DNA of 64,000 bases from Synergistes jonesii (GTDB lineage Bacteria > Synergistota > Synergistia > Synergistales > Synergistaceae). A program made the translations under genes and the position numbers. Of the stretch, positions 1 through 60,188 are shown piece by piece. Within the stretch, counting starts at the first letter, position 1. Every line of letters begins with the position of its first letter. The DNA lies in contig NZ_JMKI01000035.1 in NCBI RefSeq assembly GCF_000712295.1, forward strand, positions 5 to 64,004, written 5' to 3'. Under the pieces are notes generated by a model. That model did no database searches. It worked only from the letters and a program-made list of their open reading frames with translations, and was not told the DNA's origin.

Positions 1-1
1 C

Positions 2-847
2 CTGCAGTCTATCTACGGTGTGGATGCCTCTGCTGAAATGATTTCGCGAATGACGGATCGAATTCTGCCGATTGCCAAAGAATGGCAGAACCGGCCGCTG
101 GCCAAAAAGTATGCAGTCGTCTTTATGGACGCCGTGCATTTCAATGTGAGGCAGGACGGCCGAACCGTCAAGAAAGCCGTTTATGTTGCTATTGGGACAA
201 GACTGGACGGGCATCGTGAAGTCCTTGGCCTGTGGGTCGGCGGAAATGAGAGCGCCAAGTACTGGGTCGGTGTCCTTAACGAGATCCGTAATCGCGGCAC
301 CGAAGATATTTTCATTATCTCCGTCGACGGCCTGACAGGCTTTGCAGATGCGATAAGCGCCGTATATCCCAAGGCCGAAATCCAGCGCTGCATTGTCCAT
401 CAGATCCGTTACACGACAAAATTCGTCTCTTACAAGGACATTAAGGCTTTTATGAATGATTTGAAGGGTGTCTATCAGGCTCCTACACTGGAGCAGGCCG
501 AGGAAGGGCTTGACAGACTTGAAGAGAAGTGGGGCTCGAAATACCCGTCTTCGGTAGCGAGCTGGCGGAACAACTGGCCTCAGTTATCCGCTTATTTCAA
601 GTATCCCTATGAGCTGCGCCGGATGATCTATACGACAAACCAGATCGAGAACTACAACCGGCAGCTCAGGAAAGTGACAAAAACACGTACGATCTTCCCC
701 TCAGACGACGCCCTTCTCAAGCTCCTTTATCTTGCGACGATGGACATCACTGAAAAGTGGACCGGCAGGGACAGGGACTGGAGTAAAATTCTGTCACAGC
801 TGTGCATTTACTTTGAGGAACGCATAGAACCCGGAGATCTGGAATAG
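2..847 (+). CDS. IS256-family transposase, C-terminal part (cut by window start)
   Basis: The reading frame is already open at base 2, so the N-terminus lies outside the window and the apparent GTG start at 20 is not real. The protein is a Mutator/IS256-type DDE transposase. The catalytic residues are visible as the first Asp in FMDAVHF, the second in ISVDGLTGF and the Glu in TTNQIENYNRQ. The C-terminal region is intact to the TAG stop, and about 100 bases downstream lies the element's right end (950-1000). Known for the family: cut-and-paste or copy-out transposition with short target duplications. Whether this copy is full length cannot be told here. Confidence 0.93.
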   Translation: MQSIYGVDASAEMISRMTDRILPIAKEWQNRPLAKKYAVVFMDAVHFNVRQDGRTVKKAVYVAIGTRLDGHREVLGLWVGGNESAKYWVGVLNEIRNRGTEDIFIISVDGLTGFADAISAVYPKAEIQRCIVHQIRYTTKFVSYKDIKAFMNDLKGVYQAPTLEQAEEGLDRLEEKWGSKYPSSVASWRNNWPQLSAYFKYPYELRRMIYTTNQIENYNRQLRKVTKTRTIFPSDDALLKLLYLATMDITEKWTGRDRDWSKILSQLCIYFEERIEPGDLE

Positions 848-949
848 CCCTAAACGCCTATAAGAAAAGTCCGGGCTGCAGTCCATTGACAGCCCGGATA
901 GCGTATGTCATTATGGTGATACTGAAGCAGTAACGGTAACCCTTTGATG

Positions 950-1058
950 TCTTACATCGATCCAGGGGCAAGGGGTTTACACAGAATAAGTTACACTACC
1001 TTGATGGTCTTACATCGATCCAGGGGCAAGGGGTTTACACAGAATAAGTTACACTACC
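950..1058 (+). repeat. Two tandem copies of an IS256-type right end
   Basis: A 51-base sequence ending in GAATAAGTTACACTACC occurs at 950-1000 and again, identical and in the same orientation, at 1008-1058, separated by 7 bases. The first copy is the right end of the transposase copy at 2-847. The second copy abuts directly the truncated minus-strand transposase fragment at 1054-1248. The pattern suggests one element inserted at or next to the end of another, or unequal recombination between ends. Confidence 0.85.
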
Positions 1059-1248
1059 CGTAGCCGAGATGATCGTCCATCTCGGCTTCCATCATCTCTT
1101 TGATTGTCCCGCCAAGAAGGTCCTTCAGTGCATCCTGGATGTCCTCTGCGGACTCAATGTCATACTCCTCCAGAAGCTGGCGGATAATGTTCCGTTTACC
1201 CTCTGTCATCTGAACGTGGTGAACTGGTTTTTTCTCTCTGCGTGACAT
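1054..1248 (-). pseudogene. IS256-family transposase N-terminal fragment
   Basis: This fragment encodes 64 residues, beginning MSRREKK and ending EMDDHLGYG, that match the N-terminus of an IS256 transposase. The same stretch (AEMDDHLGY) is found in the related copy near 60000. The frame then runs into the foreign right-end sequence and stops, so the catalytic domain is absent. Upstream (1249-1330) is the element's left end, with a ribosome binding site and a small hairpin (CTATGAT...ATCATAG) just before the start codon, a leader also present in the copy at 60188. It is a relic and not functional. Confidence 0.85.
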
Positions 1249-1329
1249 ATGTAAAGCCCTCCTATGATTTAGAGTTTATCATAGAAGACCCTGCTCTTAT
1301 ATATTTACAGACTTGCTTTCACAGGCTCT

Positions 1330-1572
1330 GCCCAGCCGTCCTTGTATTTTGCAGGCCGGATGCAGGACTGACGCTGAGCGGTCGAAAGCCCGATCAGGCG
1401 TCCCGCTTGGCGGAGGATGCATGAAGCCCGCCGCCAAGCCTCGACATACTACACAGCCGGGGTTATCTTGTAGACGATGCGGCGGCATTGAAGCCGCTGC
1501 CGCCATGAAAATATCTCGCTCTATCTGAAATGCCTGCGAGTGCTTACACAAAATTTTTTGCGCTACCTGGTT
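1330..1572. other. GC-rich structured intergenic block ending in an IS256-like terminus
   Basis: No convincing gene is seen. The block contains several hairpins, for example GCTTGGCGG near 1405 pairing with CCGCCAAGC near 1430, and a GCGGCGGC/GCTGCCGC pair near 1480-1500. Short open frames exist on both strands but look incidental. At about 1544-1570 the sequence TTACACAAAATTTTTTGCGCTACC resembles the right end of the neighbouring IS256 elements, so the block may be the inside or flank of a decayed element, or a structured RNA. Its function is unknown. Confidence 0.4.
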
Positions 1573-2019
1573 TTATAGAATCCTTTTTAAATAAATCATG
1601 TCAACTAACTGTTTCCCATCTTCATACATAGGGTGGTCGTAATTGTCTATAAAAAAATTTTTAACAATATGCGATTTTTCAAAACCACATCTTTCGTAGA
1701 AACGGAGTATCTTATAACAATCGCCTGTTCCAACATATAACTCACTACCAAACTTCTTATAGTAATCAGCGATAAATGAGATCAGATATCGTCCATATCC
1801 TTTGCGTTGATATTTAGGAACAGTAACGATATTTTTAATTTCATATACGCTGGGTTGCTCATGTGTCACAATACAAATCGCCTTAATATCTCCATCACAC
1901 AAGGCAAACATATCACCGCGATACAAATATTTCTCTATCATACTTACCTGTTCATCTGCAATAAGCAGTAAATCCATGTACTTTGTTTTATCGCTATCAA
2001 TAATTTTTACAATTTTCAC
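1573..2019 (-). CDS. GNAT-family N-acetyltransferase
   Basis: The 148-residue protein has the GNAT fold signature: the acetyl-CoA-binding motif A, with PKYQRKGYGRYLISFI (Q/RxxGxG/A) in the middle, followed by the motif-B region ending FYERCGFEKS. It would transfer an acetyl group from acetyl-CoA to an amine on a small molecule or protein. The substrate cannot be inferred. The gene is markedly AT-richer than the rest of the window and sits alone between IS relics, which suggests recent horizontal acquisition as mobile-element cargo. The start codon is the first ATG of the frame. Confidence 0.8.
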   Translation of the reverse strand: MKIVKIIDSDKTKYMDLLLIADEQVSMIEKYLYRGDMFALCDGDIKAICIVTHEQPSVYEIKNIVTVPKYQRKGYGRYLISFIADYYKKFGSELYVGTGDCYKILRFYERCGFEKSHIVKNFFIDNYDHPMYEDGKQLVDMIYLKRIL

Positions 2020-2325
2020 TCGCTATTTTTCCTTTTCTCTGTAATCTTTACACATCAATTATACCCTTTTCATTTTTCAATGGTGGAACATACATCATCA
2101 TAAAAAATAGATGTGTCAATTTGTAACATGACACATCTGGTTAATTGTAAAATGAAGTTACATAGATAAAGATTTCACTGCCGGATAGAGAGATATGCAG
2201 CAAATATCCTGTAGAATTATTTCGCCCAAGACAAAAGCTACGGAAGAGATCGCTACGAATCTCAGAGATGTTTACCACAGGAGCGGGAGGCCGCAGAAAA
2301 GAAGCTATCTGTACTTTGCTCAGAG
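2020..2325. other. Intergenic region between GNAT gene and IS630 relic
   Basis: 2020-2150 is AT-rich and probably holds the promoter of the minus-strand acetyltransferase, though no strong hexamer pair stands out. About 2200-2328 has a short open frame ending KRSYLYFAQS that does not look complete and could be another mobile-element remnant. No RNA gene is seen. Confidence 0.35.
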
Positions 2326-3072
2326 TTGACTATAAGAAATTCGTTTCGAAGCAATTGTCAGGACAAGCCGCGAAGGAAGTATTTTAGAAAGATAGACCCC
2401 AAGAAGCTTGAAGATTTTCTTCGGGAACGTCCGAACGCCTATCTCAGAGAAGCGGCGGAAATATTCGGCTGCTCCAAGGCCGCCGTATCTAAAGCACTAA
2501 AACGCATGCATTATACTAAGAAAAAAAGACCGTAACATACAAAGAACAAGACGCCCGAAAATTAGCGGAGTATCTGTATAAAATCAAAGATATACCGCCT
2601 GATACGATCGCATATATAGACGAGACAGGTATAGACAGATATATCTACAGGCAGCGGGCATGGTCCCTGCGTGGGGCTCCGGTTTACGGTAAAGTGAGCG
2701 GACGTAAATACAGGCGCACGGGAATAGCCGCCGCATTGATCCGCGGTGTACTGGCGGCTCCGATGTAGTACGACGGCACTATGGACGGAGAACTGTTTGA
2801 AGCGTGGTTCCGAGACTTTTTATGTCCGGAGTTGTCAAAAGGCAGCACGATAATAATGGATAATGCATCGTTCCATCGCAAGAAGAAAGTTGAAAACATA
2901 GCAAACGGTTTTGGGCATAAAGTAATATTCCTGCCGCCTTACTCGCCGGAGCTGAACCCGATCGAACATTGTTGGTCTGCTTTGAAGAGACGCATGCAGG
3001 GCGTAATGAAATATATGCCGTCGTTCGATTCCGCCCTGCGTTATTGCATACAAGTTGAATGACTATATGCAC
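2326..3072 (+). pseudogene. IS630-family transposase, broken
   Basis: Three collinear pieces make up an IS630/Tc1-type transposase. The helix-turn-helix part (AYLREAAEIFGCSKAAVSKAL) ends at 2535. After a frameshift near 2530 the RNase-H-like catalytic domain follows, with the first Asp in IAYIDETGIDRYIY, interrupted by an in-frame TAG at 2767. The last part contains the second Asp in TIIMDNASFH and the Glu in PELNPIEHCW. The extreme N-terminus, known from the relic at 59343-59420, is missing. The element's terminal sequence at 3036-3068 is also found at 59185-59217 (31 of 33 bases). The gene cannot encode a working transposase as read. Confidence 0.88.
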
Positions 3073-3085
3073 GGAGAGACAATAA

Positions 3086-3128
3086 AAGGCCGCCGCGAAG
3101 CTAAAAAACGGCTCGACGCGGCAGCCTT
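3086..3128 (-). terminator. Intrinsic terminator of the V-ATPase operon
   Basis: Read on the minus strand, 12-base arms (AAGGCTGCCGCG and CGCGGCGGCCTT, one G-U pair) enclose a 19-base loop and are followed by TTTTATT. It lies about 30 bases after the ntpD stop codon, as expected for the end of this operon. Confidence 0.7.
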
Positions 3129-3156
3129 CTTGTGTTTTATTTGTTTTCCACGTCCG

Positions 3157-3783
3157 TCAGTGGCTCCTGACTATCTCTTTTATCACCATCAGGCGCGAGA
3201 GCGTCGAGCGCTCCATCTCTTCGAGCTTCATCGAGATCGAGCGGATCGCCTCGCCGTACGACGGTATCATGACGTGTTCGAGGGCGTTGACGCGGCGGCG
3301 CGTCCTCTCTATTTCGAGCGCCATCGACTGCACGGCCTTTTCTTCGGCCGCGAGCCGGACGAGCTTCGGCATGACGCCGAGAAATTTATCGAGGGCCACG
3401 TCGAGGCTTCCGGGGGAGGTCGCGAAACCGTAGCTGAGTTCTGCGTTCTGCTTGGGGAATTCGTACTCCGGCACGCGTACGCTCATCACGTTTTTGTAGC
3501 TGACGCCGACTTTGAGGTCGCCGCCGGCCATCATTAGAGTCTGTTCGAGCATCTGAGGCAGCGTTTGAGCGCGCGCCATAAGGAAGCCTCCGTAGCATCC
3601 TCCGAGTTCGCTTTCGACTTCTTTGCGCAGAGAGTACACGGCCCTCGCGCGGACAAGGAATTCCTTGACGAGCGCGTCCTGCTTGTCTTTGAGGAGCTTG
3701 TGTCCCCTCTTCGCCACGACGAGCAGTCTTTTCAGCCGCGACAGCTCCATTCTGTTGGGGTTGACGTTAAGCGCCTTTGCCAT
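3157..3783 (-). CDS. ntpD: V-type ATP synthase subunit D
   Basis: This 208-residue protein is the central rotor shaft of the V1 sector, which turns inside the A3B3 head and transmits rotation from the membrane ring. It begins MAKALNVNPNRMELSRLKRLL, a strongly conserved D-subunit start, and consists of two long helices (about residues 10-70 and 130-200) predicted to form an antiparallel coiled coil. It is the last gene of a nine-gene operon and starts 16 bases after subunit B. Length and position match bacterial Na+/H+ V-ATPases, so the identification is secure. Confidence 0.95.
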   Translation of the reverse strand: MAKALNVNPNRMELSRLKRLLVVAKRGHKLLKDKQDALVKEFLVRARAVYSLRKEVESELGGCYGGFLMARAQTLPQMLEQTLMMAGGDLKVGVSYKNVMSVRVPEYEFPKQNAELSYGFATSPGSLDVALDKFLGVMPKLVRLAAEEKAVQSMALEIERTRRRVNALEHVMIPSYGEAIRSISMKLEEMERSTLSRLMVIKEIVRSH

Positions 3784-3799
3784 CGAAAGTCACCCCTCT

Positions 3800-5218
3800 C
3801 TACTGTTCGTCCTGCTGCGCGAGATCCTCTTTCGCTGCGATGAGCGGATTCAGATATTTCTCAATGTATTCGTCTCTGACGCGTTTGAGTTCGCGGGCCG
3901 GGACTATCGTCAGGAGTTCCCAGCCGAGCTGCAGCGTATCTTCGACCGTACGGTTCTCGTATTCACCCTGGCGGACGTAGCGGTCTTCAAACTCGTCCGA
4001 GAACTTCGCGAACGCCTTGTCTTCGTCGGAGAGGGCGCCTTCGCCGAGTATGACCGCCAGCTCTTTCGCTTCTTTGCCGCGCGAATAAGCGGCGAAGAGC
4101 TGGTTCATCAGGTCGGCGTGATCCTCGCGCGTCTTGCCCTTGCCTATACCTTTATCTTTGAGCCGCGAGAGCGACGGCATGACGTCCACAGGCGGATAGA
4201 TGCCCCTGCGGTGCAGTCCGCGCGCAAGCATTATCTGTCCCTCTGTGATGTATCCTGTAAGGTCGGGGATCGGGTGCGTCTTGTCGTCCTCGGGCATCGT
4301 CAGGATAGGAATCTGCGTGATGGAGCCTTTTTTGCCGCGAAGCCGTCCGGCGCGCTCGTACATCGTCGCAAGGTCGGTGTAGAGGTAGCCGGGGTAGCCG
4401 CGGCGCCCGGGAACTTCTTTTCGCGCCGCGGAGATTTCGCGGAGCGCCTCGCAGTAGTTCGTAAGGTCCGTGAGGATGACGAGGACGTGCATATCCTTTT
4501 CGAACGCAAGATATTCGGCGGCCGTCAGCGCGAGGCGCGGCGTCGATATGCGCTCGATGGCGGGGTCGTCGGCCAGGTTGACGTACATGACCGTGCGTTC
4601 AAGAGCGCCGGTTTTGCGGAAGTCTTCCATGAAGAAGGAGGCCTCTTCAAAGGTGATGCCCATCGCCGCGAAGACGACGGCGAAGTCGGAGTGTCCGCTT
4701 ATGACCGTCGCCTGACGCGCTATCTGAGCGGCCATCTTGTTGTGCGGCATACCGCTTCCGGAGAAGATAGGCAGCTTCTGACCGCGGACGAGCGGGTTCA
4801 TGCCGTCTATCGTCGAGATGCCCGTCTGAATGAATTCTGACGGGAAGTCGCGCGAGAAGGGGTTCATCGGGTTTCCGTTGACGTCAAGGTATGTCTCCGG
4901 GATTATCGCCGAGCCTCCGTCCACAGGATCGCCGCGTCCGTTGAATATGCGTCCGAGCATGCTTCTTGAGACGGGGAGCCTCAGCACGTCGCCGAGGAAG
5001 CGGATCTCGGTGGAATCGACGTCTATTCCGCTGCTGCCTTCGTAGACCTGCACCAGAGCCCTGTCCTTGTCTATTTCCAGGACGCGCCCGCGGCGGCGCT
5101 CTCCGTTGGCGAGAGTGATCTCAGCGAGCTCGTCATAGCTCACGCCGCTGACCTTGTCGACCATCATAAGCGGGCCCGAAAGGTTGGCTATGGTCCTGTA
5201 TTTCTCAGGCAACCTCAT
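3800..5218 (-). CDS. ntpB: V-type ATP synthase subunit B (non-catalytic)
   Basis: The regulatory nucleotide-site subunit of the A3B3 hexamer has about 472 residues. The chosen start is the ATG at 5218 ([10 protein letters not shown]), preceded by GGGAGGTG at proper spacing. It overlaps the last 14 bases of subunit A, indicating translational coupling. A longer frame would extend to 5239 but would place the start inside the ribosome binding site. The sequence has the family hallmarks ([20 protein letters not shown], then SGSGMPHN in place of a canonical P-loop, then FLNLADDP-like [13 protein letters not shown]). The C-terminal region binds the D shaft. Confidence 0.95.
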
Positions 5219-7004
5219 CGTGCTCACCTCCCATTGCAAGCAGTTTGCCGAGTACGGCCTTTATTTTGTCTTCGAGCTCGTCGAGCTTTACAAGATCCTG
5301 TTCTTCGACGTAGCGCATACGCGCTATGTCGTCGCGTATCGGCAGGTCGATGACCGAGCGCAGCGTCGCGCCGCGCGTCAGGGCCTGCATGCCGAGGTCG
5401 TGGAAGGTCAGGATGTTGCGGAGCATTTTGAACTGTTTGTCCATAGACGCGTATGTGTCTATCTCGTGGAAGGAGTTCTGGTGCAGGAAGTCTTCGCGTA
5501 TCGACTTCGCGGTTTCTAGCACCATGCGCTCTTCTTTCGAAAGCGCGTCGACTCCGACGAGACGGACGATTTCCTTAAGCTTGTCTTCGTCTTCGAGGAG
5601 CGACATGGCGTCCGTGCGGAATACGCTCCACTCCCCGTCGTAGAAGCCGTCCCAGTATTCGCCGAGCTTTTGGGCGTATAGCGAATAGCTGTTCAGCCAG
5701 TTGATCGCCGGGAAGTGGCGCTGATAGGCGAGCTGCGCGTCGAGCCCCCAGAAGACCTTTGTGACGCGGAGCGTATTCTGCGTGACGGGCTCGGAAAGGT
5801 CGCCGCCCGGAGGAGAGACCGCCCCTATGACGGAGACTGCGCCTTCGCGCCCATCCCTGCCGAAGCATATCGCGCGTCCGGCCCTCTCGTAGAAGGAGGC
5901 GAGGCGCGTCCCAAGGTACGCGGGGTAGCCTTCTTCGCCGGGCATTTCCTCAAGGCGTCCGGACATTTCGCGCAGAGCCTCGGCCCAGCGTGAAGTTGAG
6001 TCGGCCATGAGCGCGACTGAGTATCCCATGTCCCGGAAATATTCGGCGATAGTGATGCCCGTGTAAACGGACGCTTCGCGCGCCGCGACGGGCATATTGG
6101 AGGTGTTCGCTATAAGCAGCGTCCTCTTCATAAGGGGCTGACCCGAGCGCGGGTCCTCCAGTTCGGGGAATTCGAGAAGGACGTCCGTCATCTCGTTGCC
6201 GCGTTCGCCGCAGCCTATATAGACGACGATCTCCGCGTCGGCCCACTTAGCGAGCTGGTGCTGAATGACCGTCTTGCCGGAGCCGAAGGGGCCGGGCACG
6301 CATGCGGTGCCGCCGCGGGCTATCGGGAAGAATGTATCGACGACGCGCTGTCCCGTCGTAAGAGGCACTTCGGGCGGCAGGCGCTTGACGACGGGGCGCG
6401 GCGTGCGCACCGGCCAGCGCTGCAGCAGCTTCAGCTCGTGCTCTTCGCCCTTGGCGTCTTCCACGACGGCGACAGTCTCTTCGACTGTGAACTCGCCGCT
6501 CTTTATCTCTTTGATCTTCCCGCTGACTTTATGGGGGACCATTATCCTGTGGTCTACGAGGACCGTCTCTTTCACCGAACCTATGATATCCCCCGGCCCT
6601 ACCTCGTCGCCGACTTCGGCGCAGGGCTCGAAATTCCATTTGTGCGCGCGGCTTACGGCGGGAACGCTTATGCCCCTCAGGATGTACGGGCTTTCGGCCT
6701 TCTGCTCTATCGATTCCAGCGGGCGCTGTATGCCGTCGAAGAATTCTTCTATGAGCCCCGGCGCCAGTTCGACGGAGAGCGGCTCCCCGGTGCTGACGAC
6801 AGGTTCGTTCGGCGCGAGGCCGGATGTTTCTTCGTAGACCTGGACAGAGGCCTTGTCTCCCCTGAGTTCTATTATTTCGCCCACGAGTCCGGAGCTGCCG
6901 ACTTTAACGACGTCGAACATGCAGGCGCCTGCCATTCCGCCTGCTATGACAAGCGGTCCGGATATTTTTTCGATGTACCCGGTAACGGCGTTTGGTGTGG
7001 TCAA
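5205..7004 (-). CDS. ntpA: V-type ATP synthase subunit A (catalytic)
   Basis: The catalytic subunit has 599 residues, the usual bacterial length. The Walker A loop GPFGSGKTV is at about residue 237. The A-type insertion domain precedes it (about 110-190), and the catalytic Glu region ([11 protein letters not shown]) follows. ATP is hydrolysed or made at A/B interfaces. The start ATG at 7004 gives [19 protein letters not shown], a typical beginning. The gene lies 20 bases after subunit F and overlaps subunit B. Confidence 0.97.
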
Positions 7005-50169: not shown

Positions 50170-52467
50170 CTACTTCACCAACCCAGCCTTCTTAAGTCCG
50201 GAAAGCACACGGCCAGGCACGAGCGGGCAAGCCTCGAATCGGACTCCTGTCGCATCCTCAACGGCCGACAAAATAGCGGGGAGCGTCGGGTTAACGCCGC
50301 ACTCTCCGATGCCCTTAATGCCATAGACGCCGTAAGGATCTCGGCTCTCCACAAGAATCGTCTCGATCTCACAAATATCATCCGCCGTCGGCAGCATATA
50401 TTTATGGAAGCCGTCATTATAGAAGCCTTTGCCCTCGACGTAAGTCATCTCCTCACGGGTCGCGTAGCCGACACCCTGGGCAACGCCGCCTTCAACCTGG
50501 CTTTCGCAAAGGACCGGGTTTACAACCTGACCGACGTCATGCGCAGCGGCGACCTTCAGGACCTTTACAAGGCCAAGCTCCATATCGACCTCGACTTCGG
50601 CGGCCTGCGCAAACCAAGGCAGACTGTTCGGAGGAATCTGACATTCACTTGCAATAAATTGATGTCCCCGAAGGTGAGCCTGGTAAGCAAGTTTCTTAAT
50701 CGTCATCTCCTTCCCTCCGCCAAAAACGATACCATCCTTTAAATCCAGCTCTTCAGCCGGAACTTCCATCATCTTAGATGCGAAGCCGAAGATATCCGCA
50801 CGAAGCTTCTTAGCCGCACAACTCATAACATAGCCGACCGTATAAAGCGTTCTTGTCGCGTGAGAACCGATATCGAAGGGGCCGGCGGCAGTATCTCCGA
50901 ACTGCATCGTAGCCGATTCGAACGGAACGCCGACGAGGTCACAGGCAACCTGCATAAGAGCTGTCGTCGATCCCGGGCCGATCTCCGGAATACCCGAAGA
51001 GACGAACAGCGAGCCATCCTGCTCTAAACGCATAACGATCGCGTTGTAGTCGACACAGAAGGGAGCCGCATTAGAAACGTGCGTCCCGCAGGCGATGCCG
51101 ACGCCGCGGCGGATGTTTCCGCTCTGCTTCCTGCCGCGCTTCTCCTTCCATCCGATCGCAAGAGCCGCGCGGTCCAGACACTCGTCCACTCCGATGGAGC
51201 CGACCGGGAAGGGCCAGAATCCAAGAGGATTCTCTTCCCGACGCGTATTCAGGTGGCGCAGCTCGATCGGATCCATGCCCAATACCTGAGCCATTTTATC
51301 AACGGCGGCCTCAACGATCGCCGTACCCTGCGGCGTGCCAAATCCGCGGAAAGCGCCGGCCGTTTCCTGATTAGTATAAACCGGATAACCCGTGTAACGA
51401 TTTGCCGGAATATAATACGTGCCCTGCGTGCCGCAGGCGCCGCAGACGCCCAGCAGCTCGATGCCAAAAGTTGCATACGCGCCGGTGTTGAGCCAGGCCG
51501 TCGTATCCATCGCCATGAACTTGCCGTTTTTATCCGCGCCCAGACGGCAATGCAGATATCCGCCATGGCGCGTATCGGAGCAAAGCATATCTTCCGCACG
51601 CGTATAGATAAATTTGACAGGCGCATGCGCCTCTACGGCAAGAGCCGCAGCGATGATTTCTGCCTTACCCGAAATACCGATTCGTACGCCGAAGCCCCCG
51701 CCTACGTAAGGCGGGTTCTGAACGTGCACCTTGCTCTCCGGCATGTCAAGCGCATAAGCTAGAATCATTTTGGTAGGATGCGGCGTCTGCGTCGTGCACC
51801 AGACATCCAGGCGGCCGTTCTTATAATCCGCGACGGCGCCGTGGGTCTCCATCTGACACTGTTTAACACGAGGCAACTCAATGTCCGTTTCTACAACGTG
51901 ATCGCAATTCTTGAAATGCTCTTCCAAATCGCCCTGGAAAACGTCTATATGCACGACGACCCCGCAGGCATTGTTTACTTCGGTCTTGCCGATCTCCGGA
52001 TGAAGCGTGACAGCCTCGGGCTTGATGGCCTCAAGAGGATCGTAGACCGCCGGCAGTTCCTCATATTCTACCCTGATCAGCTTCACAGCCTGCTCTGCGA
52101 TCGCTTCGCTCGTTGCGGCGACCGCGGCGACCTCGTCGCCGATGTAAAGGGGTTCGTTCGTGACGATATATTGGTCGCGGATCGGCTCCTCAGGCGGATT
52201 CGTGGTAACCATCGTAGCACTGGTATTAAAAGGGATGTGCTTCGTGTTCTCCCAGGTGATGATCGCTTTTACGCCGTGAAGCGCTTCCGCCTTGCTGGTG
52301 TCGATGGAGAGGACCTTAGCATGTGCGTAAGGGCTCCGGACAGCCTTAGCGTAAAGCATGTGAGGAAGATAGATATCCGCGGTAAACTTTCCGCAGCCGG
52401 TGACCTTGTCGTAACCATCGTTGCGGGGAATACTTTCACCTACATATGTTGTCATATCCGTTACCAT
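50170..52467 (-). CDS. Xanthine-dehydrogenase-family molybdenum subunit
   Basis: A 765-residue large subunit of a molybdenum hydroxylase. The N-terminal domain opens IPRNDGYDKVTGCGKFTADI. Molybdopterin-binding parts are PPYVGGGFGVRIGI, AGAFRGFGTPQGTAIVEA and GSTTALMQVACDLVG. The catalytic Glu is in VYGIKGIGECGVNP near the C-terminus. Such enzymes hydroxylate purines, N-heterocycles or other carbons with water as oxygen source. The substrate is unknown. It is last in the FAD-FeS-Mo operon and overlaps the FeS gene by 7 bases. Confidence 0.92.
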   Translation of the reverse strand: MVTDMTTYVGESIPRNDGYDKVTGCGKFTADIYLPHMLYAKAVRSPYAHAKVLSIDTSKAEALHGVKAIITWENTKHIPFNTSATMVTTNPPEEPIRDQYIVTNEPLYIGDEVAAVAATSEAIAEQAVKLIRVEYEELPAVYDPLEAIKPEAVTLHPEIGKTEVNNACGVVVHIDVFQGDLEEHFKNCDHVVETDIELPRVKQCQMETHGAVADYKNGRLDVWCTTQTPHPTKMILAYALDMPESKVHVQNPPYVGGGFGVRIGISGKAEIIAAALAVEAHAPVKFIYTRAEDMLCSDTRHGGYLHCRLGADKNGKFMAMDTTAWLNTGAYATFGIELLGVCGACGTQGTYYIPANRYTGYPVYTNQETAGAFRGFGTPQGTAIVEAAVDKMAQVLGMDPIELRHLNTRREENPLGFWPFPVGSIGVDECLDRAALAIGWKEKRGRKQSGNIRRGVGIACGTHVSNAAPFCVDYNAIVMRLEQDGSLFVSSGIPEIGPGSTTALMQVACDLVGVPFESATMQFGDTAAGPFDIGSHATRTLYTVGYVMSCAAKKLRADIFGFASKMMEVPAEELDLKDGIVFGGGKEMTIKKLAYQAHLRGHQFIASECQIPPNSLPWFAQAAEVEVDMELGLVKVLKVAAAHDVGQVVNPVLCESQVEGGVAQGVGYATREEMTYVEGKGFYNDGFHKYMLPTADDICEIETILVESRDPYGVYGIKGIGECGVNPTLPAILSAVEDATGVRFEACPLVPGRVLSGLKKAGLVK

Positions 52468-52937
52468 CCTTTCCGCATACGCTCTGCTGCGGCGAGAACA
52501 GCTTCTTGGATTTTCTTATAGCCTGTGCAGCGGCATATATTTCCACCCAACGCTTCACGCACTTCAGTAGGCGTCGGGTTTGGATTCTCATCCAGAAGCG
52601 CCTTAGCCGACATGATCATGCCCGGTGTGCAGAAACCACACTGGACTGCGCCATGATTAATAAACTCTTCCTGAATCGGGTGAAGCTTGTCCCCCTCAGC
52701 CAGACCTTCGATTGTTTCTATAACCGCGCCATCCGCGCGCATTACCGGAACGAGACAACTCGTAACCGCCTTGCCGTTGAAAATAACCGTACAGGCGCCG
52801 CACTCGCCGCGTTTGCAGCCGATCTTGGTCCCTATCAGATGCAGCTCGTCGCGCAGGAAATCAGCAAGCCGCATATCCGGATCCACATCCGTTTCCATAA
52901 AAACGCCGTTCAGCGTAAATGAAATCTTCTCGCGCAT
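52461..52937 (-). CDS. Molybdenum hydroxylase (2Fe-2S) subunit
   Basis: About 158 residues. The plant-type [2Fe-2S] motif is CKRGECGACTVIFNGK, with the second ligand set QCGFCTPGMIM and GNICRCTGYKKI, the diagnostic two-cluster small subunit. The start at 52937 (MREKISFTLNG) follows GGAGGGG; the frame beyond is not used. It passes electrons from the Mo centre to FAD. Confidence 0.95.
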   Translation of the reverse strand: MREKISFTLNGVFMETDVDPDMRLADFLRDELHLIGTKIGCKRGECGACTVIFNGKAVTSCLVPVMRADGAVIETIEGLAEGDKLHPIQEEFINHGAVQCGFCTPGMIMSAKALLDENPNPTPTEVREALGGNICRCTGYKKIQEAVLAAAERMRKGW

Positions 52938-52941
52938 ACTC

Positions 52942-53826
52942 TTACCCCTCCTTCTCATATTTCACACCCAGCTGAGTCGCAATATCTTCCAGCGCGCGTC
53001 TGACAAGGATCGGAAGCGTCGCTTCACGATATTCCCTGCTGCCGCGAAGAGGGTTGCTTCTGGGCTTCGCGTCAAGGAGCGCCATATTGCCGGCTTCCGC
53101 CATATTCTTCCAGTTCAATTTTTTACCAGCCAGCCATTCTTCAGCATGGCGGGCGCGAACGGGCCCTACGCCGACCGGTCCCATCGTAATCCGCACCCAG
53201 TCCACTTCGCCGCCTGTCGCGCCGGCCATGGCCGCGACGTTCAGCATCGGCAGAGACAACGACTTTCTAAGCTCCAGACGGACATACGAAGAAGCCTCAT
53301 TCTCCTTAGGCAGGGGGATACGGATTTCTTTTACCATCTCGTTGTGCGGATCGATGGCCGTACGGCCGAAGCCCGCGTACATCTCCTGCGTATTTAATTT
53401 CTTATCTTCCGCACCCTCTCTGGAAATCACATAGGCCGGATTCAAAGGAGCTACAGCCATGCCGCCGTCGGCGGCTGGCTGCGCGCTGACCACATTTCCG
53501 GTCAAAGTGGCGGAATTGCGTATTTGCAATGATCCAATGCAGCCGGTTCCCTTTGTCAGAGACAAGAAATACCTGCGCACCAGGGGGTTGTGCGTGATCT
53601 CCGTCAGCGTTGCCGACGCGCCGATCACAAGCTCGTCGCCCTCGATGCGTATCTCTTTCATTTCCGGGATCTGTGTTACATCGATCAGAACGTCTGCACT
53701 TATCTTCCCCTCTTCCATGTCTATGGTCAAATCCGTGCCGCCGGATATAACGCGTCCCTTTCCCTGAGCGTCAGCCAGCGCTCCCAAAGCTTCGCCGATA
53801 GACTTAGCGAGTACATACTTCATCAT
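52942..53826 (-). CDS. Molybdenum hydroxylase FAD-binding subunit
   Basis: A 294-residue medium subunit of the CoxM/NdhF type. FAD contacts are visible as VISGGTDLTIDMEEG near residue 30 and TKGTGCIGSLQIRNSATLTGNV at about 100. The C-terminal CO dehydrogenase flavoprotein domain follows. It is first in the operon, starts with ATGATG after GGGGAGG, and is preceded by an unusual leader (53859-54157). Confidence 0.93.
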   Translation of the reverse strand: MMKYVLAKSIGEALGALADAQGKGRVISGGTDLTIDMEEGKISADVLIDVTQIPEMKEIRIEGDELVIGASATLTEITHNPLVRRYFLSLTKGTGCIGSLQIRNSATLTGNVVSAQPAADGGMAVAPLNPAYVISREGAEDKKLNTQEMYAGFGRTAIDPHNEMVKEIRIPLPKENEASSYVRLELRKSLSLPMLNVAAMAGATGGEVDWVRITMGPVGVGPVRARHAEEWLAGKKLNWKNMAEAGNMALLDAKPRSNPLRGSREYREATLPILVRRALEDIATQLGVKYEKEG

Positions 53827-53858
53827 GCGTTCCTCCCCTCATAAACACACAAGAATTT

Positions 53859-54083
53859 TTATAGGCAGTACAGCAATGCCCAATGGATTCGAACAAAAAA
53901 GCGGCTGTCCATGTACATGGCGTACATAGACAGCCGCTCAATTAGCAATGATAGCTTATGAGTTATGACTGACTGACTGACTGACTGACTGACTGACTGA
54001 CTGACTGACTGACTGACTGACTGACTGACTGACTGACTGAGCATCGGGCATTTCCGTCCTCTTGTCAATAGCCTTCTTAACAT
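53859..54083 (-). CDS. Repeat-containing leader ORF of the molybdenum hydroxylase operon
   Basis: 74 codons: MLRRLLTRGRKCPM, then a Ser-Gln-Ser-Val repeat from the tetranucleotide tract, then ITHKLSLLIERL to the TAA at 53859. A ribosome binding site (AAAGGAAG) and a promoter 50 bases upstream suit translation from 54083. Only this frame is open across the terminator at 53894-53938; the other two meet TAA codons right after the repeat. Proposed role: translation in the correct frame would disrupt the terminator. The peptide itself need have no function. Confidence 0.5.
   Translation of the reverse strand: MLRRLLTRGRKCPMLSQSVSQSVSQSVSQSVSQSVSQSVITHKLSLLIERLSMYAMYMDSRFFVRIHWALLYCL
53894..53938 (-). 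terminator. Intrinsic terminator inside the leader of the molybdenum hydroxylase operon
   Basis: 17-base arms (53900-53916 and 53922-53938) pair with one mismatch around a 5-base loop and are followed on the minus strand by a T-run (TTTTTT). It lies about 70 bases before the first structural gene and after the promoter, and so would stop transcription unless prevented. Confidence 0.8.
53966..54040. repeat. (TGAC)n tetranucleotide tract
   Basis: 75 bases, 18 full TGAC units plus TGA, uninterrupted. On the minus strand it reads AGTC repeats, which contain no stop codon in any frame. Tetranucleotide tracts of this length are known hot spots of slipped-strand mispairing in phase-variable genes of other bacteria. 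Confidence 0.97.
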
Positions 54084-54129
54084 TTTTTTCGCTTCCTTTC
54101 TATAGCAACTTAACAGTCCAAGATAACAT

Positions 54130-54157
54130 TTTATAGTGTATAAAATATAGGTCACAA
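54130..54157 (-). promoter_or_regulatory. Promoter of the molybdenum hydroxylase operon
   Basis: TTGTGA (54152-54157) and TATAAA (54130-54135) are spaced by 16 bases on the minus strand. The start site would be near 54123, about 40 bases ahead of the leader ORF. Confidence 0.6.
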
Positions 54158-54647
54158 TTATTATATCATATGTAATAATTTTGAAAAGTAGAAATTAAGA
54201 GACAACACATTGTATTTAATATAAGTTTGCTAAATTGTATTTTTTTGACATAAATTCAATCTAATACCCCTCATAAAGCCTGCTGTGCTTTTTCTTAGTG
54301 GTTTTTGTCATTTTTTTGTCTATTTATTGAGTACTTTTGGACGCCGTGTTAAAACAGCGCTACGGGGAGGTGGATTTATGCGATTGAAAGTATCTAAATA
54401 AGAACGCCGCTTCTTCACGACGCCCGACAATACTAACGAGCAGGTACCCTTAGAGCCTCTTGAACGTAAACTGCCACACGCTTTCAAGCTGTCGAAGTTT
54501 GTCGTATGTACGGACGCGGGGTTGGCGAGTACCGCGAACAGGAAGCCGAACGATGCCGCAGAGATGGCCTAATTTTTTGTTATCGTCAATTTTTTGTTTG
54601 TTTGTCGCGTGATATAGTGTACAATATTTTCCGTTGGAGGTGATTGC
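54158..54647. other. AT-rich spacer with IS4-like relic
   Basis: 54158-54340 is AT-rich with no gene. 54401-54571 is a transposase relic (separate entry). 54572-54647 holds the promoter region of the YheO-type regulator, including CAATTTTTTG at 54586-54595, which matches one arm of the palindrome at 55463-55504. Confidence 0.5.
54401..54571 (+). pseudogene. IS4-superfamily transposase fragment
   Basis: The frame ending at the TAA of 54571 reads DNTNEQVPLEPLERKL and FVVCTDAGLASTANRKPND, which matches the middle of IS4/IS1634-type transposases around the catalytic Asp of CTDAGL. Both ends are missing. It is a short decayed relic. Confidence 0.65.
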
Positions 54648-55373
54648 GTGACGGATATGCCGAAAATGAATCCAAAATTAAAAATACTCATCCCCGTCGT
54701 CCGCGGCCTCGCCCAAACGCTGGGCAAGGACTATGAGGTGAATCTTCACGACGTTTCGATGCCCGAACACTCGCTCGTCCTCTGCGAGAACGGCTATGTA
54801 ACCGGCCGCAGCGAAGGCGGCCCGATGACGGATTTCGGCCTGTTCATGCTGCAGTCCGAGAAATATCGCGATAAAGAAGGAATTTTCAACTACCTCGCTA
54901 AAAACAACAGGGGCGAGCTGATCAAATGCAGCTGCATCTTCATAAGAGACGAAGAGGGGCAGATAATCGCCTTCCTCTGCATCAACTACGACCTTAAAAA
55001 AGCCTTCGCGGCGCAGGAATTGATCGAAAGCCTCGTCAGCGTCGGCATGGGAAAGGTCGAGCAATACCCGGAAAGGCTCGAGGCGGGGGAGAAATCCGGC
55101 GGTAAATTCCCCGAGCTCGTGCGCGAATCTTTCGCTCAGAATTTGGAAGAGGTCATAGGAGATTCTCTCGAAACTGTCAGGAAGAACGCCGGCAAGCCGC
55201 TGAGATTCCTGACGAAGCCGGAAAAAAAGTTGATCATCCAGGAGCTCCTCGACAGAGGCTTTTTCCGCCTGAAGGGAGCCGTCGACACGCTCGCTGCCGA
55301 GATGGGCAACACAAAATTTACGATATACGCGTACATCAGAGAGATACAGAAACAGCGGGAGAACGCTAAATAA
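54648..55373 (+). CDS. YheO/DauR-type transcriptional regulator
   Basis: 241 residues. The N-terminal YheO-like PAS domain (about 10-125) opens with LVRGLAQTLGKDYEVNLHD-like sequence and contains CIFIRDEEGQIIAFLCINYD. The C-terminal helix-turn-helix (about 195-235) ends AEMGNTKFTIYAYIREIQ. In Pseudomonas DauR represses D-amino-acid dehydrogenase genes, which fits the dehydrogenase operon downstream. GTG start at 54648 after GGAGGTG. Confidence 0.85.
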   Translation: MTDMPKMNPKLKILIPVVRGLAQTLGKDYEVNLHDVSMPEHSLVLCENGYVTGRSEGGPMTDFGLFMLQSEKYRDKEGIFNYLAKNNRGELIKCSCIFIRDEEGQIIAFLCINYDLKKAFAAQELIESLVSVGMGKVEQYPERLEAGEKSGGKFPELVRESFAQNLEEVIGDSLETVRKNAGKPLRFLTKPEKKLIIQELLDRGFFRLKGAVDTLAAEMGNTKFTIYAYIREIQKQRENAK

Positions 55374-59066: not shown

Positions 59067-59183
59067 TTACAGAATTCCTTTTACGGGTTCAACGCTGCCC
59101 TCTATGGCTTCTCTTATTACGGGTTCAACGCTGCCCTCTATGGCTTCTCTTATGCCTGTAAGCCCGTAAGCGCAGATGAGCAT
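59067..59183 (-). pseudogene. C-terminal gene remnant with duplicated 12-residue motif
   Basis: On the minus strand an open frame of 38 codons from an ATG at 59183 to TAA at 59067 reads MLICAYGLTG, then IREAIEGSVEPV twice, then KGIL. The duplication comes from a 36-base in-frame tandem repeat. It adjoins the IS630 terminus, which suggests that the upstream part of the gene was removed or displaced by the IS. The family is not recognised. Confidence 0.4.
59081..59152. repeat. 36-base tandem duplication
   Basis: The unit TTACGGGTTCAACGCTGCCC plus 16 bases occurs twice without spacer (59081-59116, 59117-59152) and without a mismatch. Two copies only and no spacer exclude a CRISPR. Confidence 0.95.
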
Positions 59184-59342: not shown

Positions 59343-60188
59343 TCAATTATACAAGGAGCGTCCGTCAAGTATGTATTTTACAGCGTGTTCTCTGAGGTCT
59401 TTAGAATATAATGTCATGAATATAGGATACACCATCTCGTTACTCTTGGATAGTTGATGGATTATATCCTTTACACCGCGGTTTTTGAGGCTGTTCATGA
59501 CGGAGAGCCAGTATTTCGAGCTCTCATTTTCCCCGATTTCTACTGTCAGGACTTCCTTGTGCCCTTCGGCGTTTATGCCGAGGATGACATACGCCGCAAG
59601 CTTTTTGATTATTCCGCTGTCTCGTACCGAATAGTGTATGGCGTCTATGTACAGCACCGGCCAGACTTCAGACAGTGACCGGTTCTGCCAGTCCTCTATC
59701 TCCGGCAGTATCTTGTCCGTGACGTTCGATATGAAGCCTTCTGAGGCCTCAAAACCATATACATCCATGAGCATGGCTGATATCTGCCTTGTCGTCATGC
59801 CATTTATATACATGGAGATTATCTTTCGATCTATCTCCGATATATCTTTCTGGCGTTTCTTGATAACTTTAGGCTCAAACGTGGAAGCCCTGTCCTGGGG
59901 AACTGATATCTTCATTGTTTCCAGGCTCGAGTTGACTGTCTTTTCCTTGTAGCCGTTCCGGCAGTAGTCCGAGTCCAAGCGTTCTGATTTCTCATAGCCA
60001 AGGTGGTCGTCCATCTCCGCTTCCATCATCTGCTTGATGGTACCGCCGAGCAGGTTCTTCAAGGCATCATGAATGTCCTCGGCAGTTTCGATGACGTACT
60101 ACTGAAGAAGGCGCCTGATTATTTCTTCCTTGCCTTCCGTCATGACAACCCTGTGGACCGATTGTTTCTCTTTCCTCGTCTTAGCCAT
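59343..60188 (-). pseudogene. IS256 transposase pseudogene fused to IS630 N-terminus
   Basis: From the ATG at 60188 the frame reads a normal IS256 N-terminus, interrupted by an in-frame TAG in place of a Glu codon (about 60101-60103), then a long intact part with the first catalytic Asp (VLYIDAIHYSV). After VKDI, at about 59455, IS256 homology stops and the frame continues into PIFMTLYSKDLREHAVKYI, the start of an IS630 transposase. Thus an IS630 landed in the IS256, and most of its own inside is gone. Non-functional. Confidence 0.85.

Follow-up and report, generated by a model that had tools for sequence, protein, structure and literature searches.

Here we describe a promoter–leader–repeat–terminator cassette that precedes a molybdenum hydroxylase (Mo-hydroxylase) operon in Synergistes jonesii and occurs as five dispersed copies in the genome. 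One copy lies on the reverse strand of the window, the whole 64,000-nucleotide stretch of DNA that was analysed (55.4% GC; Table 1). We consider it probable, with a likelihood of roughly two in three, that this copy is a phase-variable attenuator working like the leader of the Streptococcus gallolyticus pil1 locus. The parts of this reading taken from the sequence are a promoter-like site, a translation start, the repeat array, the positions of the stop codons, the terminator, covariation among stems and four paralogous cassettes.

Table 1. Features of the cassette and of the operon behind it (positions in the window)
Feature	Position	Strand	Remarks
Promoter TTTTCA-16-TATAAT, TG preceding the −10	54160–54187	−	10/12 matches; segment conserved in 3 of the 4 other copies
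Shine–Dalgarno sequence AAGGAA	54093–54098	−	9 nt 5′ of the leader ATG; read from sequence
Leader ORF, 74 aa	ATG 54083 to stop 53859	−	Open through array and terminator
Second ATG, different frame	54049–54051	−	Upstream AGAGGACGG, purine-rich
Tetranucleotide array, 18.75 perfect TCAG units	53966–54040	−	TRF: 18.8 copies of a 4-base unit, 100% matches
Off-frame stop TAA	53963–53965	−	23 nt upstream of hairpin
Off-frame stop TAA, remaining frame	53956–53958	−	16 nt upstream of hairpin
Intrinsic terminator, 17–18 bp stem, 5-nt loop, six U	53895–53939	−	Positive terminator scan
Mo-hydroxylase FAD subunit, first gene of operon	52942–53826	−	Start 68 nt past U tract
Mo-hydroxylase [2Fe-2S] subunit	52461–52958	−	Pfam domain
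Mo-hydroxylase molybdopterin subunit	50170–52467	−	Pfam domain

Most of the anatomy set out in an earlier note on this DNA was recovered: the ribosome binding site and ATG, a leader frame open past the terminator, the 4-base repeat, the TAA stops of both other frames between repeat and hairpin, an intrinsic terminator with 17-base arms and the FAD–FeS–Mo operon with its expected Pfam domains. A promoter-like site is present as well, although the site first proposed (54157–54128) has only 9 of 12 matches and the one in Table 1 is better. An internal promoter within the leader (TTGACA, 54068–54063) was rejected, as the hexamer 17 nt downstream, GATGCT, is a poor −10.

A 20-mer of the repeat had no match in 100 dinucleotide shuffles, and a chance origin of this 75-nt perfect tetranucleotide array is ruled out. 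When gain or loss of units was simulated from −6 to +6, starting at the leader ATG, the reading frame ended at 53859, 53956 or 53963 in strict rotation; repeat number thus sets the stop, as had been claimed, and one unit more or less moves it to one of the two sites before the hairpin. The present stop lies 32 nt upstream of the operon. In phase-variable genes of Haemophilus and Neisseria, a slippage-prone tetranucleotide array lies inside the structural gene and makes its output frame-dependent, whereas here the stop precedes the FAD start in all three phases, so that leader and FAD gene stay separate whatever the array length. Since no phase joins the two, the arrangement is not that of Haemophilus and Neisseria, and classical translational SSR phase variation was rejected. 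The second ATG is in a frame that would cross the hairpin at n − 1 units, which would blur the predicted switch. Shuffled spacers reproduce the frame geometry of the window about 10% of the time; the geometry of a single locus is therefore weak evidence, and the weight falls on the comparison of the five copies.

The arms of the terminator (53900–53916 and 53922–53938; 17 nt, 94% complementary) are followed by a U tail at 53900–53895, and hairpin and tail fold with an energy of −32.1 kcal/mol. The 68 nt that separate the U tract from the operon yielded no promoter-like site, so that transcripts should have to cross the terminator. No strong competing stem was seen, the terminator folding independently in the minimum-free-energy structure of the whole leader, and an Rfam scan of the window gave no family match; an amino-acid attenuator or riboswitch was rejected on these two grounds. 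The switch of the Clostridium difficile gene cwpV acts through an intrinsic terminator. That gene is a phase-variable surface gene switched by DNA inversion (PMC2784873), in contrast to the window locus, where the hairpin arms are the only inverted repeat found in 53600–54700; an invertible promoter or terminator switch was rejected because no flanking inverted repeats were found there.

Two queries, the terminator segment of the window and a leader segment taken from a further copy, were run against the whole genome (2,741,240 bases in 60 contigs). Five dispersed cassettes were found, designated C35 (the window copy), C48, C5, C31 and C10, and a covariance model built from them finds exactly these five again in the genome. 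Their arrays contain 18.75, 15.75, 7.75, 2.5 and 4.5 units, respectively, with perfect runs of 75 nt (C35) and 63 nt among them. All AGTC runs of at least 14 nt genome-wide lie inside cassettes; the array of C31 is below that length. Four copies are homologous from the −35 (CTTTTCAAAA) onward and C5 from roughly its leader ATG; homology ceases shortly after the U tract, and the sequences flanking the copies are unrelated. A purine-rich stretch precedes the ATG in all five, and once the copies are aligned, 26 nt consistently separate array and hairpin. Of the three frames that leave the array, one meets a stop 23 nt short of the hairpin (5/5 copies), another 16 nt short of it (4/5; 2 nt inside the hairpin in C31) and the third passes the loop (5/5). 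The layout first read from one locus is thus shared by four paralogous cassettes. From ATG to hairpin, the window copy spans 144 nt and the three short-array copies 76–99 nt.

The U tract lies 68 nt (C35), 420 nt (C48), 255 nt (C5), 178 nt (C31) and 302 nt (C10) from the next start. The genes behind C48 and C10 encode YadA-like trimeric autotransporters, in which head and stalk repeats of the YadA type occur together with collagen-like stretches. C31 is followed by a bacterial sugar transferase (sugar-phosphate transferase) with other genes after it, and C5 by a 704-aa protein that starts MFFNKKNFLSFLMPLIAVVFMAVIAGGCGG, is lipoprotein-like by eye and has no Pfam match. Four of the five downstream genes have typical or likely surface functions; the fifth target, that of C35, is an enzyme operon. 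Its subunits are xanthine-dehydrogenase-like, with scores below every NCBIfam equivalog cut-off, and a search of the genome contig collection with the FAD subunit returned a single relative (38%). Within positions 1–6000 of the C48 contig, the trimeric-autotransporter frame is very large, contains long collagen-like repeats and continues to the contig end. Read from the first ATG, the leaders of C35 and C48 are predicted to read through (ON), that of C10 to stop 16 nt before the hairpin and that of C31 to stop 2 nt inside it. In C5, a frameshift directly after the ATG (MLKNY*) ends the leader after five codons, so at least one leader is broken.

Among the copies, 96.5% of stem cells are paired, against at most 51% when the arms are slid, while the stem sequences are 64–92% identical and three pairs have changed on both sides. 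Column shuffles reach the observed covariation score in 56 of 500 cases, an excess that is only weak; with so few stem changes, covariation is support, not proof. Neutral simulations started from the consensus kept the full geometry in four or more of the five copies in 45% of runs; common descent is thus enough to account for it, and selection is not proved. The pre-array codons of distinct copies differ by 0 synonymous and 5–8 nonsynonymous changes, so the leader peptide itself is not conserved, as expected if only passage of the ribosome matters and equally if the peptide is irrelevant. C48 and C10, the two copies ahead of trimeric autotransporters, are 99% identical over 128 nt in their leader parts and 74% identical in their stems, a mosaic that suggests recombination or gene conversion between copies across the repeat array.

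The closest precedent is pil1 of S. gallolyticus, where GCAGA repeats within a leader ORF move its stop with respect to the terminator (Danne et al. 2014, PMC3894217). There, deletion of the terminator locks expression high, removal of the leader start locks it low and added stops abolish the two-state behaviour; the same control by repeat length is reported for a second locus, pil3 (PMC3894217). The cassette resembles both: a tandem repeat lies within a leader ORF that has a ribosome binding site to itself, an intrinsic terminator separates the leader start from the operon, repeat number sets the leader stop before as opposed to within or past the hairpin when the change is out of frame, more than one locus per genome carries the arrangement, and surface genes lie downstream. 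The pil loci differ in their GCAGA pentamers, Gram-positive host, sortase pili, number (two) and demonstrated switching, whereas S. jonesii has TCAG tetramers in a Gram-negative phylum and five cassettes, known here from their sequence, ahead of trimeric autotransporters, a glycan gene and the Mo-hydroxylase operon. An OFF stop precedes the hairpin by 16 or 23 nt in the window and by 39 bp in S. gallolyticus UCN34 (PMC3894217). The earlier note had seen novelty in a shift that acts on antitermination instead of on the structural gene; that claim falls, the mechanism having been published for S. gallolyticus in 2014 (PMC3894217). Relative to the open-access literature, what is new is the occurrence in this phylum, the type of repeat unit, dispersal over five loci and an enzyme as target; the mechanism is already known in kind.

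In the proposed mechanism, transcripts of the window copy would start near 54153 and ribosomes would load at the ATG at 54083. With 18.75 units, or a number differing from it by ±3k, a ribosome close behind RNA polymerase would cross the hairpin sequence, the hairpin would not form and the Mo-hydroxylase operon would be transcribed. After slippage by one unit, translation would end 16 or 23 nt before the hairpin, which would form, and most transcripts would stop at the U tract. Three elements of this scheme are inferred: that units slip in the living population, that ribosome and polymerase are coupled in this phylum and that expression responds. The pyrBI attenuator of Escherichia coli responds to UTP through polymerase pausing and contains no repeat. 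As in the cassette, its leader ORF spans the terminator and a close-following ribosome blocks the hairpin (cited in PMC4824070), but control there is by UTP, whereas in S. jonesii it would be genetic, by repeat number.

Measurements in E. coli bear on how sharp such a switch could be. Termination fell from about 90% to <10% when a stop codon was shifted from 28 to 5 bp before the terminator (Li et al. 2015, PMC4824070). With the stop only a few bp upstream, repression of the terminator is nearly complete; two constructs with the stop at 17–18 bp differ widely (termination about 0.12 versus 0.8), the maximum is reached beyond a stop-to-terminator distance of about 27–30 bp, and a terminator located within 100 bp of the start of a coding region remains efficient (PMC4824070). 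Frame-gated antitermination, as put forward in the earlier note, fits the anatomy, the four paralogous cassettes and the S. gallolyticus precedent, but a binary ON/OFF is too sharp. Because both OFF stops fall where termination in E. coli still rises with distance, a graded, three-state output is more likely. By the same measurements, the two OFF phases would probably leak unequally, the 16-nt phase perhaps leaking and the 23-nt phase less so, and array length would also set the lead from ATG to hairpin. Given their lead of only 76–99 nt, the short-array copies may be nearly locked OFF, terminating even if translated.

A covariance model search over 188 Synergistota genomes gave no convincing carrier among the 187 besides the genome of S. 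jonesii itself. The lone outside match (38.5 bits, contig C14 of genome G142) was rejected as chance: judged by eye from the translation of the sequence upstream of it, it resembles the 3′ end of an L7/L12 ribosomal protein gene and its ordinary terminator. The exact terminator pattern had no match in the genome contig collection, from which the genome studied here is possibly absent. Searches of the plasmid collection and of viral contigs also gave no match. The earlier note had suggested looking in relatives for repeat leaders ahead of terminators. Four other family members (G017, G019, G023 and G068) have AGTC arrays, yet no hairpin with a U run was found within 200 nt 3′ of any of them (in G017 within 110 nt, up to the contig end); arrays that have no terminator are not this cassette. 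It thus looks, from these searches, specific to the species or its close relatives. In G023 (C22, 3042–3084), 10.75 AGTC units directly follow TTGACA-16-CATAAT, ahead of a long ORF that is AlgX/AlgJ-like by eye and with no terminator, which is probably ordinary repeat phase variation in a relative. In G019 (C54, 545–609, reverse complement), 16.25 units lie just 5′ of an ORF resembling a PAS-domain protein, with no terminator within 200 nt.

The strongest competitor, which we regard as unlikely, sees the cassette as a small, dispersed transcription unit complete in itself (a small RNA or peptide gene), with the downstream genes using promoters of their own and repeat length having no regulatory meaning for them. 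Each copy does have its own terminator, and one promoter segment is common to four of them. In four copies the gap measures 178–420 nt, enough to hold other promoters: a promoter-like TTGACG-17-TAAAAT lies downstream of the terminator in C48, and the gap in C31 contains TGTTATAAT. Against this stand the codirectional placement of all five cassettes with the next gene, the gap of just 68 nt in the window, in which no promoter-like site was found, the unconserved peptide sequence and the lack of an Rfam match in the window.

Two further explanations are improbable, and to about the same degree. Array length could act as a frame-independent rheostat, setting the distance from ribosome loading to hairpin or some property of the transcript, so that output would vary smoothly with length; the spread of ATG-to-hairpin distances (76 to 144 nt) and the efficiency of early terminators in E. 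coli (PMC4824070) are in its favour. A smooth response sits badly with the off-frame stops directly after the array in all copies, affecting both other frames in 4/5, and with S. gallolyticus, where expression follows frame, not length (PMC3894217). The cassette could instead be a decaying dispersed repeat that has no present function, with the window frame passing through the hairpin by chance. The broken leader of C5, the short arrays of C31 and C10, the 10% of shuffled spacers with the same geometry and the 187 other Synergistota genomes that have no homologue are consistent with decay, which accounts poorly for the perfect 75-nt and 63-nt arrays, for stems that are 96.5% paired despite 8–36% divergence and for placement upstream of likely surface genes.

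Beyond the attenuator reading of the window copy, we put forward more tentatively, at somewhat less than even odds, that the cassettes are a dispersing phase-variation module copied before at least five operons; the adhesins, the glycan gene, the putative lipoprotein and the Mo-hydroxylase, here taken as catabolic, would each switch independently, graded by frame and array length, and the module would have an origin separate from that in Streptococcus. If so, repeat-gated attenuation would not be limited to Streptococcus and would have been reached independently in a distant Gram-negative phylum, in the form of a ready-made module able to spread within a genome and to be put in front of even a metabolic enzyme gene. 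S. jonesii lives in the rumen and is known to degrade a derivative of a plant toxin; if its Mo-hydroxylase and adhesins do switch stochastically, this could affect its colonisation and performance. The five natural copies, with their differing array lengths, allow a direct test of frame against length.

Elsewhere in the window, a YheO-like regulator with PAS and HTH_22 domains (54648–55373, forward strand) is divergent from the Mo-hydroxylase operon and is a possible conventional regulator of it. An exact 36-bp tandem duplication lies 3′ of an oxidase-like gene (59081–59153) and is followed by an ORF resembling a truncated transposase (59343–60062, reverse strand); a 58-bp tandem duplication with 98% matches is found at 944–1058.
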